From: Jannaschia sp. S6380
Lineage (GTDB): Bacteria; Pseudomonadota; Alphaproteobacteria; Rhodobacterales; Rhodobacteraceae
Reading direction: 5' to 3'
DNA length: 64,000 nucleotides
Assembly: GCF_023015695.1 (NCBI RefSeq)
Contig: NZ_JALKAS010000001.1
Location: 2,108,001 to 2,172,000, forward strand
The translations under genes were made by a program, and so were the position numbers. The first letter of the stretch is position 1, and each line of letters opens with the position of its first letter. The notes under the pieces were generated by a model. It saw nothing but the letters and a program-made list of their open reading frames with translations, did no database searches and was not told the DNA's origin. Positions 48,618-52,753 of this stretch are shown here, piece after piece.

Positions 48618-49073
48618 ATGCGCAAGTTTCTGGTCGTTCTCGACGACAGCCGCGAATGCCTGAACGCGATGCGTTTCGCCTCGCTCCGCGCCCAGCACAC
48701 GGGCGGCGGCGTCGAGGTCCTGTCGGTGATCCCGCCCGATGAGTTCAACCACTGGATCGGCGTCGGCGACATCATGCGCGAGGAGGCCCGCGAACGCATC
48801 GTCGCGCATTTCGAGGTCTTCGCGAAATGGATGCGCGACAAGCACGGACTGGAGCCGCACCTGGTCATCCGCGAGGGCGAGCCGGTGACCGAAATCCTGG
48901 CCCAGGTCAGCGAGGACCCCGAGATCGGCGTCCTCGTTCTGGGTGCCAGCGCCGACGGCAAGGGACCGGGGCCGCTGGTGTCGCAGTTGACCCGGTCGGC
49001 CGGGACCCTGCCGGTGCCGATCACCATCGTGCCGGGCGATCTGTCGAAGGAGCAACTGGAAGGGATCGCCTGA
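48618..49073 (+). CDS. Universal stress protein (UspA family)
   Basis: A 151-residue cytoplasmic USP-fold protein: KFLVVLDDSRECLNAMRFASLRAQ at the N-terminus, VEVLSVIPPDEFNHWIGVGD, VIREGEPVTEILAQ and LVLGASADGKGPGPLVSQLTRSAGTLPVPITIVPG, where the G-x2-G-x9-G-(S/T) ATP motif of Usp proteins is only partly kept. GGGGGAG precedes ATG 48618. Stands 75 bases ahead of the secreted-protease pair. Confidence 0.88.
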   Translation: MRKFLVVLDDSRECLNAMRFASLRAQHTGGGVEVLSVIPPDEFNHWIGVGDIMREEARERIVAHFEVFAKWMRDKHGLEPHLVIREGEPVTEILAQVSEDPEIGVLVLGASADGKGPGPLVSQLTRSAGTLPVPITIVPGDLSKEQLEGIA

Positions 49074-49148: not shown

Positions 49149-50516
49149 ATGCAACGTATGATCCGCATTGCCCTTCTCCTTCTCCTGGTGGCGTTCCCGA
49201 TACAGGCCGACCCCAGTGATCGCTTCGACGCAAACCGCCTGACGCGGGAGGATACGCGCTTCCTGCAGGCCGCGTTGTCCTTCAGTGGATTCTATGTGGG
49301 TCTGATCGACGGCGCGTGGGGCGCCCGAAGCGCGGACGCGTTGCGAGCGGCCGCCGGCCCGACGCCGACTGAGGCCGAAGTTCTACTTACTCTGCATCCG
49401 TTCATAGCCGACTTTGAGACCGCGACCTGGCAGGACCTGAACTTGGAAGGAACGTCGGCGCTGCTGCCAATAGGCATCTTGATCCGAGATGAGGGGCCTG
49501 ACTACGCGGAGCTTCGGACCCCGGATCGAGATCTCATCGTGCGCCATATCTGGCGAACGGCAGACGGCACATCCGAAATGCACCGTTGGCTGGAGCAGGC
49601 CCACACAGCGCCCGTTCCCGTCTATCGAGCGGATACGGCCGAGGCATATGTAACGAAGGGCAGGCTCCCGTCGGGCGACGAGGTCTATCTGCGTACGATC
49701 ACCCGCGGCGGATATTTCGAGACAGTCCTTGTGCAGTGGTCGAGGCGGCAGGCGGCTCGCGCCCGGGTCGTGGTCGCGAGCCTTACGAATAGCCGGGTCG
49801 ATCCCCTTGTCCTACCGGACTATGGCTACTTCGCCGCCATGATGGAATCGCCGCCCCGGGGGTCCGCGCCGCCCGCGGCCGGCGTTTCGAACGAGCGCTC
49901 AACCGGCTCCGGTACGGGCTTCTATGTCAACGATACCGATATCGTCACTGCTGCCCATGTTGTCTCCGAATGCGCGCGGCTGTCTTTGGCGGACAACTCC
50001 CCGCTGCTTCTTCTGGCTGCCGAAAAAAAGACGGATCTCGCCGTGCTCCGCGCCGCCCGACGTTCGAACTCGTGGCTGGAACTCGGAACGGAAGTTCGCG
50101 CGGCACTCGGTGCACCCATCGTGGCGGTCGGTTTTCCCTATGCTGGCATGTTCCGACAAGGACTGAGCGTAACGCGCGGCAACGTCAGCGCCATGAAGGG
50201 ACTGGCTGGTGAAGATCACGTCCTGACTTTCACGGCGCCCGTGCAACCGGGAAACAGCGGAGGTCCGCTTTTGGATGGCGATGGTCGAGTCATCGGCGTG
50301 ATCAGTTATCGGGCATCGGACCTTTGGACCTTGGAGCAGTCCGGCACGATTCCCCAAAACATGAATGCGGCCACTGCCCTCGAGCCTCTACGCCAGTTTC
50401 TTGCTAAAGCCCGGGTTGAGTTTACCGTGCCTGATACCCCCAGCCGCGACCTTTCGCGCGGGCTTCCGATGGCGATCACAGACCCGGTTGTCGCAGTGCA
50501 GTGCCACCCTAGCTAA
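49149..50516 (+). CDS. Secreted trypsin-like serine protease with N-terminal peptidoglycan-binding-like domain
   Basis: About 455 residues with a signal peptide (MIRIALLLLLVAFPIQA). An N-terminal region (FDANRLTREDTRFLQAALSFSGFYVGLIDGAWGARSADAL) resembles a peptidoglycan-binding-1 helical repeat. The C-terminal half is an S1-type protease with an intact triad: His in TAAHVVSEC, Asp in KKTDLAVLRAA, Ser in PGNSGGPLLDGDGRVIG. Codon use is visibly less GC-biased at third positions than in its neighbours (ctt, act, cta, ata, gtt, tat), suggesting transfer or relaxed selection. The start may be ATG 49149 or 49158. Followed in tandem by a related gene. Confidence 0.85.
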   Translation: MQRMIRIALLLLLVAFPIQADPSDRFDANRLTREDTRFLQAALSFSGFYVGLIDGAWGARSADALRAAAGPTPTEAEVLLTLHPFIADFETATWQDLNLEGTSALLPIGILIRDEGPDYAELRTPDRDLIVRHIWRTADGTSEMHRWLEQAHTAPVPVYRADTAEAYVTKGRLPSGDEVYLRTITRGGYFETVLVQWSRRQAARARVVVASLTNSRVDPLVLPDYGYFAAMMESPPRGSAPPAAGVSNERSTGSGTGFYVNDTDIVTAAHVVSECARLSLADNSPLLLLAAEKKTDLAVLRAARRSNSWLELGTEVRAALGAPIVAVGFPYAGMFRQGLSVTRGNVSAMKGLAGEDHVLTFTAPVQPGNSGGPLLDGDGRVIGVISYRASDLWTLEQSGTIPQNMNAATALEPLRQFLAKARVEFTVPDTPSRDLSRGLPMAITDPVVAVQCHPS

Positions 50517-50589
50517 AGTAGTTCCAGCGCATTGGCCGGATGCGCACGGACTGCTGGGTTCGGATCCCGCAGCAGATGGGGGATTGCCA

Positions 50590-52113
50590 ATGATTTGCAG
50601 GATACCTGCCGCCTTTGTCAGCGTCGTTCTGTGGTTCGTGACGGCGATCGGCGGTGCCAATGCACAGTCGATCTCGCTCGCGCAGGATTTCGACGCGCGC
50701 GACCTGACGCGGCAGGAGGTTCAGATCGTTCAGGCCGCGCTGGCGCATTACGGCACCTACGACGCGCTTCTGGACGGTGCCTGGGGTGGGGGAAGTCAGC
50801 GTGCGCTCGAGACCTACGTCACGCGCGAACGGGGCGGCGACGGCCCCGATTTCGACGACGTGCGCGCATTGCTTCGGGGGTTCGAGCGCGAGCGCCGCCT
50901 TGGCGGCTGGGCCCCGGTCTATCACGCCAGGGCGCAGGTCGGTCACCTGTTGCCGCTGGGCCGGCTGACGCGATCCGATACGCCAGAGGAGACGCGATAC
51001 GCCACCTCGGACGGCGGGCTGGTCATCGTCAAGCGCAGCGGTTTCGTCCGCCCCTACGACCTGCACGACGCCATCGAGGCGGATTCGCAGCCGGGCACGA
51101 CCCCCTACCGCACCGAGAGCGACCGCCGGATCATCACCGCGGCCCGCATGCGCGGCGGACGCGACGCCTATGTCCGCTCCGACCGCGACGATGGCGGATG
51201 GGAAACGCATATCGTGATCGCGGACGCGGCCCATGCCGACGATCTTCGACTGATCGCTTCCAGCTTCCAACGCGCGCCGGCGGTCGAATTGACGCCGCCT
51301 GCCGGGGGGACGCTGGACGCGCTGCTGCATGCCGATGGCGGTCGGCTGCCCGTCCCGGAACGCCCGCGCCCGCCTGAGCCGCGCGCGCCCGAACGCGAGG
51401 CCTCCTTCGAGGAGTTGCTGGTCGGGCTCATGGGGAGCGTCCTGGCCGAGACCTTGAGGCGCGAAAGCGACCGCGACCGCGACGAGGACGACCGCGAGGA
51501 TTCCGAGGCCGAACGCCTGCGCGAACTGGCCCGCGAGCGGGAGCGCAGCCGGGGCGCGGCGTCGGGCTTCTATGTCAACACGACCGACATCGTCACGTCG
51601 GCCCAGGTTGTCGGGGCGTGCGAGCGGTTGGAACTGGTCGACGGGACGTCGCTTTCGGTGATCGGGCGGGACGACGCGGCCGGTGTCGCGGTGCTGGCCG
51701 CGCCGGGGCGGTCGGCGCACTGGCTTCCGGTATCGCCCCGCGCCGCAGAGCGCGGCGCACAGGTGCGCCTGCTGTCGCGCGCGGGCCTGGAGGGCGCGCG
51801 GGTCGCCGCCCGCGACGGCCGGATCCTGGGCGATGCCGACCGCCGGGGCCGGTTGCGTCATGACGTCCGCATCGCGCCGCGCGGCGATGGCGGCCCGTTC
51901 CTGTCGTCGGACGGACGGGTGATCGGCGTGGCTTTGCCGCCCAGCGGCGCCGCCGAGGATGGCGGGACGCTGTTGCGGGACGACGCGTTGCGCGGGCGGC
52001 TGGACGCGTTCGGCGTGCCCTATTCCGACGGGCACACCCGGCGCACCACGCTGACCCGCGACACGCCCCGCGCCCTGTCACGCGCCGTCGTCGCCATCCG
52101 CTGCGACGGATAG
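50590..52113 (+). CDS. Secreted trypsin-like pseudoprotease, paralogue of the preceding gene
   Basis: A 507-residue protein with signal peptide (MICRIPAAFVSVVLWFVTAIGGANA). Its N-terminal domain (FDARDLTRQEVQIVQAALAHYGTYDALLDGAWGGGSQRALETY) is clearly homologous to that of the upstream gene, and the protease-like domain aligns too, but every triad position is changed: TSAQVVGAC (His to Gln), DAAGVAVLAAPG (Asp to Gly) and RGDGGPFLSSDGRVIG (Ser to Asp). A charged linker (ESDRDRDEDDREDSEAERL) precedes it. Codon use is fully GC-biased. It is probably a binding or regulatory pseudoenzyme, not a decayed gene, as the frame is intact. Confidence 0.85.
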   Translation: MICRIPAAFVSVVLWFVTAIGGANAQSISLAQDFDARDLTRQEVQIVQAALAHYGTYDALLDGAWGGGSQRALETYVTRERGGDGPDFDDVRALLRGFERERRLGGWAPVYHARAQVGHLLPLGRLTRSDTPEETRYATSDGGLVIVKRSGFVRPYDLHDAIEADSQPGTTPYRTESDRRIITAARMRGGRDAYVRSDRDDGGWETHIVIADAAHADDLRLIASSFQRAPAVELTPPAGGTLDALLHADGGRLPVPERPRPPEPRAPEREASFEELLVGLMGSVLAETLRRESDRDRDEDDREDSEAERLRELARERERSRGAASGFYVNTTDIVTSAQVVGACERLELVDGTSLSVIGRDDAAGVAVLAAPGRSAHWLPVSPRAAERGAQVRLLSRAGLEGARVAARDGRILGDADRRGRLRHDVRIAPRGDGGPFLSSDGRVIGVALPPSGAAEDGGTLLRDDALRGRLDAFGVPYSDGHTRRTTLTRDTPRALSRAVVAIRCDG

Positions 52114-52119
52114 GGGCCG

Positions 52120-52168
52120 TTTAGAATCGTTCCAACTTATTGACAGACGGCGGACGGAGGATCACATA
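52120..52168 (+). promoter_or_regulatory. nfuA promoter with Irr-box-like site
   Basis: TTTAGAA (52120-52126), three bases, TTCCAAC (52130-52136) resembles the iron control element TTTAGAA-N3-TTCTAAA recognised by Irr in alphaproteobacteria, with two mismatches. Directly after it is TTGACA (52140-52145) and, 17 bases on, CACATA (52163-52168), a near-consensus sigma-70 promoter. The site ends four bases ahead of the -35. Confidence 0.6.
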
Positions 52169-52192: not shown

Positions 52193-52753
52193 ATGTTCAT
52201 CCAGACCGAGACGACGCCGAACCCGGCCACGCTGAAGTTCTTGCCGGGGCAGACGGTCCTCGACACCGGAACGGCCGATTTTCCGACGCCCGATGCGGGC
52301 GCGAAATCGCCCCTGGCACGGCGTATCTTCGACATTGGCGGCGTCACCGGTGTGTTCTTCGGCAACGATTTCGTGACCGTCACCAAGGATGACGACACCG
52401 AATGGGACCATGTAAAGCCCGCGATCCTGGGCGCGATCATGGAGCATTACCAGTCCGGCGAGCCGGTGATGGAAGGCGAGGCCCAGACCCAGCACGCCGC
52501 CAACCACGACGAGGCCGACAGTGCGATCGTGGGCCAGATCACCGAATTGCTGGACACCCGCGTGCGCCCCGCCGTCGCGCAGGATGGCGGCGACATCACG
52601 TTCCACGGCTTCGACCGGGGCGTGGTCTATTTGCAGATGAAGGGGGCCTGTGCGGGCTGCCCCTCGTCGACGATGACGCTGAAGATGGGCATCGAGAACC
52701 TGCTGCGCCACTATATCCCCGAGGTGCTGGAGGTGCGGCCCGTCGGGCTCTGA
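52193..52753 (+). CDS. nfuA: NfuA-like iron-sulphur cluster carrier protein
   Basis: A 186-residue Fe-S scaffold/carrier. Nfu N-terminal domain (MFIQTETTPNPATLKFLPGQ, FDIGGVTGVFFGNDFVTVTK) and C-terminal NifU domain with the cluster-binding CAGC motif (DGGDITFHGFDRGVVYLQMKGACAGCPSSTMTLKMGIE). It receives clusters and passes them to apoproteins. CGGAGG precedes ATG 52193. The upstream promoter carries a likely iron-responsive site. Confidence 0.95.
   Translation: MFIQTETTPNPATLKFLPGQTVLDTGTADFPTPDAGAKSPLARRIFDIGGVTGVFFGNDFVTVTKDDDTEWDHVKPAILGAIMEHYQSGEPVMEGEAQTQHAANHDEADSAIVGQITELLDTRVRPAVAQDGGDITFHGFDRGVVYLQMKGACAGCPSSTMTLKMGIENLLRHYIPEVLEVRPVGL

Follow-up and report, generated by a model that had tools for sequence, protein, structure and literature searches.

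Two trypsin-like genes in one chromosomal slot

The DNA analysed here, a stretch of 64,000 nucleotides referred to as the window, comes from a marine bacterium, a Jannaschia, and holds two neighbouring genes for trypsin-like proteins, p1 and p2, on the same strand and 73 bases apart (Table 1). They lie between a gene that, judged by its sequence, probably encodes a universal stress protein (USP) and another that presumably encodes a NifU-domain protein; the interval between these two genes is called the slot below. The frame of p1 begins at the ATG at 49149, with a second ATG at 49158 being an equally possible start, and the frame of p2 is intact over all 507 codons, as an earlier note on this DNA had stated.

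Both proteins match Trypsin_2 above its cut-off of 27.6 bits (82.6 bits for p1, 42.6 bits for p2), and they can be aligned with each other in both halves (37% over 146 columns and 27% over 217). Scores for the peptidoglycan-binding family PF01471 are suggestive and lie under the cut-off of 23 bits (17.1 for p1; for p2, 13.9 with the whole protein and 17.3 with its first 90 amino acids). By eye, both proteins look exported, with a hydrophobic N-terminus that ends in an alanine motif.

The catalytic columns of p1 hold His270, Asp296 and Ser370, the triad by which it would classify as an active S1C serine protease. At the same columns p2 has Gln339, Gly365 and Asp433, exactly the replacement that had been read from the two sequences, and it lacks the triad of an active S1C enzyme. 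The observation of the earlier note, an active-type gene followed by a triad-less one of the same layout, is confirmed. The trypsin fold is retained in p2 according to its model and structure comparison, and the AlphaFold model of p1 has a mean pLDDT of 88.8. Two cysteines of p2, Cys344 and Cys505, are invariant in the aligned active and pseudo sets (alignments A1, 16 rows, and A2, 26 rows) and could possibly form a disulfide.

Neither protein belongs to the MarP (Rv3671c) family, the scores of 67.8 bits for p1 and 25 bits for p2 being far under the cut-off of 250 bits (NF033740). Among the Pfam matches up to E 1, neither has the PDZ domain of HtrA/Deg proteases such as DegS, from which p2 further differs in having no triad, and neither has the TauE domain of MamO. 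The mid domain of p2 matched no Pfam family up to E 10, and its matches to PDB sequences up to E 10 were chance-like only; the structure-search lists were filled by the trypsin domain.

Table 1 Features of the p1/p2 locus (positions in the window) and the P600 gene of the same genome
Feature	Position	Strand	Basis or remark
USP gene (presumed)	48618..49073	+	Upstream slot edge; orthologue upstream of slot in related loci
p1, active-type secreted trypsin-like protease, 455 aa	49149..50516	+	Trypsin_2 82.6 bits; H270/D296/S370
p1 His270 codon, catalytic	49956..49958	+	Alignment column of triad
p1 Asp296 codon, catalytic	50034..50036	+	Alignment column of triad
p1 Ser370 codon, catalytic (GNSGG)	50256..50258	+	Alignment column of triad
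p2, pseudoprotease, 507 aa, ATG 50590	50590..52113	+	
p2 layout (residues)			Signal-like N-terminus; PG-binding-like 30-82; mid domain 83-228; linker 229-322; trypsin fold 323-463; tail 464-507
p2 linker insert, residues ~271-303	51400..51498	+	Alignments
p2 Gln339 codon, at catalytic His place	51604..51606	+	Alignment
p2 Cys344 codon	51619..51621	+	Invariant in aligned active and pseudo sets
p2 Gly365 codon, at catalytic Asp place	51682..51684	+	Alignment
p2 Asp433 codon, at catalytic Ser place	51886..51888	+	Alignment
p2 Cys505 codon	52102..52104	+	Invariant in aligned active and pseudo sets
Palindrome TTTAGAATCGTTCCAAC	52120..52136	+	Before NifU-like gene; downstream slot edge
NifU-domain protein gene (presumed)	52193..52753	+	Downstream slot edge; synteny
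P600 of the window genome	G000:C1:71233-72960 (L227:7234-8961)		Outside the window; same layout, without triad

The p2 clade and its pattern of conservation

Orthologues of p2 are present in five further Jannaschia genomes at only 38-43% identity, a fast pace of evolution compared with the 50-54% seen for p1 between species of one genus. A protein search added P0003-P0010 to the clade, one of them from a Sulfitobacter, and with L061, L067 and L068, which are more remote from it, the pseudo members number 17 including p2. A profile search with A1 at E 1e-20 returned nothing beyond proteins already known from the other searches, and a first scan of genome contigs with p2 as query found no relative. 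Outside the Rhodobacteraceae, 6 of 385 genomes of the class match A1 at E 1e-20, through the trypsin part only.

The genes of the clade are full-length, they span several genera, and an intact triad is found in none of the 17 members. This supports the view that p2 is a maintained pseudoprotease and no one-off. The earlier note had spoken of a conserved loss of all three catalytic residues; what is conserved is the absence of an intact triad, since all three residues are gone in 14 members, one is still kept in three (P0004, P0008 and L067), and 15 different triplets occur among the 17 (QGD, AGA, RGA, ERD, SDD and others).

In an unrooted tree of 73 proteins, from which L120, L213, L214 and L215 of the 77 rows were excluded as fragments or not alignable, the 17 pseudo members make up one side of a single branch (89/93) and the 14 core rows group at 100/99. 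L061, L067 and L068 stand on long branches and are placed less surely, and the joining of L061 and L068 may be false. A second unrooted tree combined 40 of the 73 rows with 15 of 20 paralogues found beside glyS (see below). Because the p2 clade falls among slot-type active proteases there (98/96 for a node of 35 rows, 85/95 for one of 32 rows), the best reading of p2 is that it descends from working proteases; an origin among active, slot-type enzymes is most likely, assuming that the triad is ancestral and that the glyS-side clade is the far side of the unrooted trees. In the second tree, L067 branches separately from the rest of the pseudo members, at a poorly resolved fork (3 changes), so that even a third loss of the triad is possible.

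The envelope half of the protein is conserved in the p2 clade to the same degree as in its active kin, unlike the serine lobe. Mean identity in the p2 core versus the p1 clade is 0.54 versus 0.52 in the peptidoglycan-binding-like region, 0.46 versus 0.47 in the mid domain and 0.44 versus 0.53 in the first lobe of the trypsin fold, and falls to 0.27 (0.23-0.31) versus 0.60 (0.54-0.66) in the serine lobe. That lobe measures 76-83 amino acids in 14 of 14 core members against 98-102 in 15 of 15 members of the p1 clade, about 20 residues less, and the stretches GFPY..GLSVTxGNVSA and SGTxPQNMN of the active kin are absent from p2. Five mid-domain residues (H119, D198, W204, H207 and R228) do not change across the 14 core members but vary in 31 active ones.

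The linker is also longer, with 66-100 amino acids in the p2 clade versus 39-54 in the p1 clade. An insert at about residues 271-303 of p2 differs in size among the 14 core relatives and L061 and is gapped in 97-100% of the 31 active members compared; the p2 model places a helix at 273-298 with low confidence. A hydrophobic-moment scan of the linker gave no clean separation (15 of 17 pseudo versus 26 of 56 active members), so it is the alignment gap that carries the claim of an insert.

Occupancy of the slot and the relation of p2 to p1

In 20 Jannaschia genomes, the slot is empty in ten (gap of at most 333 bases), holds p2 alone in five and p1 alone in two, and contains both genes only in the window genome. 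At one of the five p2-only loci, L054, the USP gene was not found. An RTX calcium-binding repeat gene (L189:5963-6970) fills the slot in another genome, and in the last one a contig end interrupts it, with neither p1 nor p2 found genome-wide. Further Rhodobacteraceae slots hold frames that do not match the protease family, so genes of various kinds may insert there.

Among 80 named Rhodobacteraceae loci, a gene of the family occupies the slot at five, a number that includes the doubtful L120 and three (L103, L107 and L140) whose genomes apparently also figure in the other counts. L120:4760-5914, from Thalassovita litoralis, is a slot frame of 384 amino acids with a weak family match (172 bits), no Pfam match and triad columns that cannot be aligned. 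A set of 394 Rhodobacteraceae genomes takes a single genome from each genus, apart from Jannaschia with two. The protease family is present at E 1e-25 in 33 of them, at the slot in 13 (in one of these the contig stops short of the NifU-like gene) and at other places in 20; the NifU-like gene itself is present in 381. All nine pseudo genes with known context precede the NifU-like gene, eight of them with a USP gene found upstream, and the active rows of the 73-protein tree with known context divide into 11 in the slot and 17 elsewhere. The gene tree of p2 disagrees with the species tree built from seven neighbours, suggesting that genes were exchanged or repeatedly lost at this place.

At the downstream edge, a palindrome close to TTTAGAA-N3-TTCTAAA precedes the NifU-like gene by about 75 bases. 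Allowing up to 4 mismatches, it was found within the 160 upstream bases in 87 of 104 loci, a few of which are the same genome twice, versus 4 of 104 after shuffling. It resembles an Irr-type iron-responsive box and is a putative site of that kind. Since the slot ends before this conserved palindrome, insertions leave the stretch whole.

The earlier note had suggested that p2 acts on or with p1. Counted over the 20 Jannaschia genomes, p2 occurs in six (it is absent from 14) and p1 in three, with both in one genome, p1 only in two, p2 only in five and neither in 12 (Fisher p = 1). These counts speak against the linkage of the pair, which the earlier note had named as a test of its idea, and rule out an obligate p1-p2 pair for Jannaschia; the genus searches around G005 and G139 covered one genome each and added nothing. 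Further cases of the pair are possible in Jannaschia formosa, with P0005 and P0015, judging only from contigs of equal size (283817), and on an environmental contig of 7993 bases (P0004 and P0032), where equal size is again the sole indication. Given these possible recurrences, the two genes may have come together in the slot by chance or may be loosely linked partners.

The typical codon use that the earlier note reported for p2 is found in that gene and not in p1: GC3 is 0.85 in p2 and 0.70 in p1, about two standard deviations below the window mean of 0.849 (sd 0.076), a reference made of 48 mechanically chosen window frames of at least 150 amino acids, some of which are surely not genes. 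The p1 orthologues of L058 and L059 show no such deviation (0.86 and 0.85). From this deviation of the window p1, it probably arrived in the genome later than p2.

The closest studied case to p2 is MamO, the sole bacterial trypsin-fold pseudoprotease with a studied function found in the literature searched. MamO is reported to promote MamE proteolysis and to bind metal, and its catalytic residues are said to be properly placed (PMC4794232). The likeness lies in a repurposed trypsin fold, in the retention of a pseudoprotease alongside an active enzyme of the same trypsin-like kind and in repeated triad loss in duplicates (PMC4794232). In contrast to MamO, with its TauE-like transporter domain and a di-histidine metal site on its surface, p2 has a peptidoglycan-binding-like and a mid domain, no TauE match and none of the three catalytic residues, and it shows no tie to p1, their co-occurrence in the 20 genomes being no better than chance.

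Following this model, p2 could be the regulatory partner of an active protease, p1 or another trypsin-like enzyme encoded elsewhere in the genome, which it would switch on or place as MamO does MamE. MamO is reported to be needed for MamE-dependent proteolysis, and inactive copies are said to have arisen several times beside active ones in magnetotactic bacteria (PMC4794232); the close spacing of p1 and p2 on one strand and the two possible repeats of the pair would fit. However, p1 is missing in five of the six Jannaschia genomes with p2 and p2 in two of the three with p1, and the window p1 deviates in GC3 as from later arrival; we consider such a partnership unlikely. Substrate trapping is a common mode of action for dead enzymes, and p2, with its retained trypsin fold, might bind peptides that an active protease would cut. 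Against such a decoy, which the earlier note had also considered, stands the serine lobe, which makes up half of the cleft and is shortened, poorly conserved within the clade and devoid of the two stretches found in the active kin, and we regard trapping as very improbable. That p2 is a decaying copy without selected function would agree with its fast divergence and patchy presence, but 17 long open frames in several genera, peptidoglycan-binding-like and mid domains conserved as in the active kin, and clade-specific invariant residues make decay quite improbable as well.

Because the envelope half is conserved, the serine lobe is short and poorly conserved, and no association with p1 is seen, we read p2 as an envelope binder and not as a regulator or decoy of p1. 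We think it fairly probable that p2 is a secreted, non-catalytic envelope-binding protein descended from active slot-type proteases, and that p1 is an active paralogue from the same slot with which it need not cooperate. In this mechanism, p2 would be exported and sit at the peptidoglycan, where the mid domain, to which we assign a role as a guess, and the extra linker helix would bind a partner or ligand. The trypsin fold would be only a body, perhaps tied by a disulfide, and p1 would use the same chromosomal slot as an active enzyme that probably joined the genome more recently. Points that weigh against this reading are the PF01471 scores under the cut-off, the lack of family matches for the mid domain, the rapid divergence of p2 and its absence from most Jannaschia genomes, and the possible recurrence of the pair.

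P600, a pseudoprotease lineage beside glyS

A further gene of the window genome, P600, has the layout of p2, namely PG_binding_1, a mid region, a trypsin fold and a C-terminal Cys. PG_binding_1 is over its cut-off (44 bits), Trypsin_2 scores 40.6 bits, an extra N-terminal region is present, and no NCBIfam family is matched over its cut-off. In 20 loci, the window genome's included, P600 lies near the beta gene of the tRNA synthetase glyS in 18 and near a DUF6446 gene in 19. A candidate member is RSP_1880 of Rhodobacter sphaeroides, listed in PMC9275681 as a peptidoglycan-binding domain protein near a CenR site. It was found in 339 of the 394 Rhodobacteraceae genomes (302 of the 347 good ones) and in 18 of the 20 Jannaschia, where none of the 18 genes has an intact triad. 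P600 is not associated with p2 or p1, being present in 6 of 6 Jannaschia genomes with p2 and in 12 of the 14 others (p = 1).

P600 thus resembles p2 in layout and triad loss and differs from it in its clade, its near-universality and its well conserved serine lobe (0.57). Its genes group as a clade of their own (100/100), set off by a long branch (2.05) in the unrooted tree. The simplest reading of this placement is that its triad was lost independently of that of p2, with some doubt because the branch is long and the tree unrooted. Tentatively, and with slightly more reserve than belief, we suggest that one envelope-protein layout may have lost catalysis at least twice in the Rhodobacteraceae. 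The near-universal P600, with a conserved cleft and Glu/Gly/Ala in GDAGGPV as newly favoured residues, would then be a reader of peptides or peptidoglycan, whereas p2 would have dropped much of the cleft, kept the envelope half and come to alternate with an active cousin in the slot.

Should P600 indeed read peptides of the envelope, the Rhodobacteraceae cell envelope would contain a widespread component that has no name yet. The family-wide P600 and the fast-changing p2 in its accessory slot, together with their active cousins, offer natural controls for the question of why dead proteases persist. In the titles and abstract openings of the open-access literature, we found no publication on p1, p2 or P600 and none that joins Rhodobacteraceae with pseudoproteases, and the accessible part of PMC10470522 holds nothing on the three proteins.

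The residues at the catalytic places of P600 were compared in 83 distinct genes from 90 loci, mainly high-scoring and not a random draw, none of which has an intact triad. The His place is taken by E in 51, D in 13, Q in nine and others in ten (one H), the Asp place by G in 81, with one P and one gap, and the Ser place by A in 70, V in seven, T in three and others in three (one S). Glu/Gly/Ala is the commonest combination, and the motif GDAGGPV is present in 65 of the 83.
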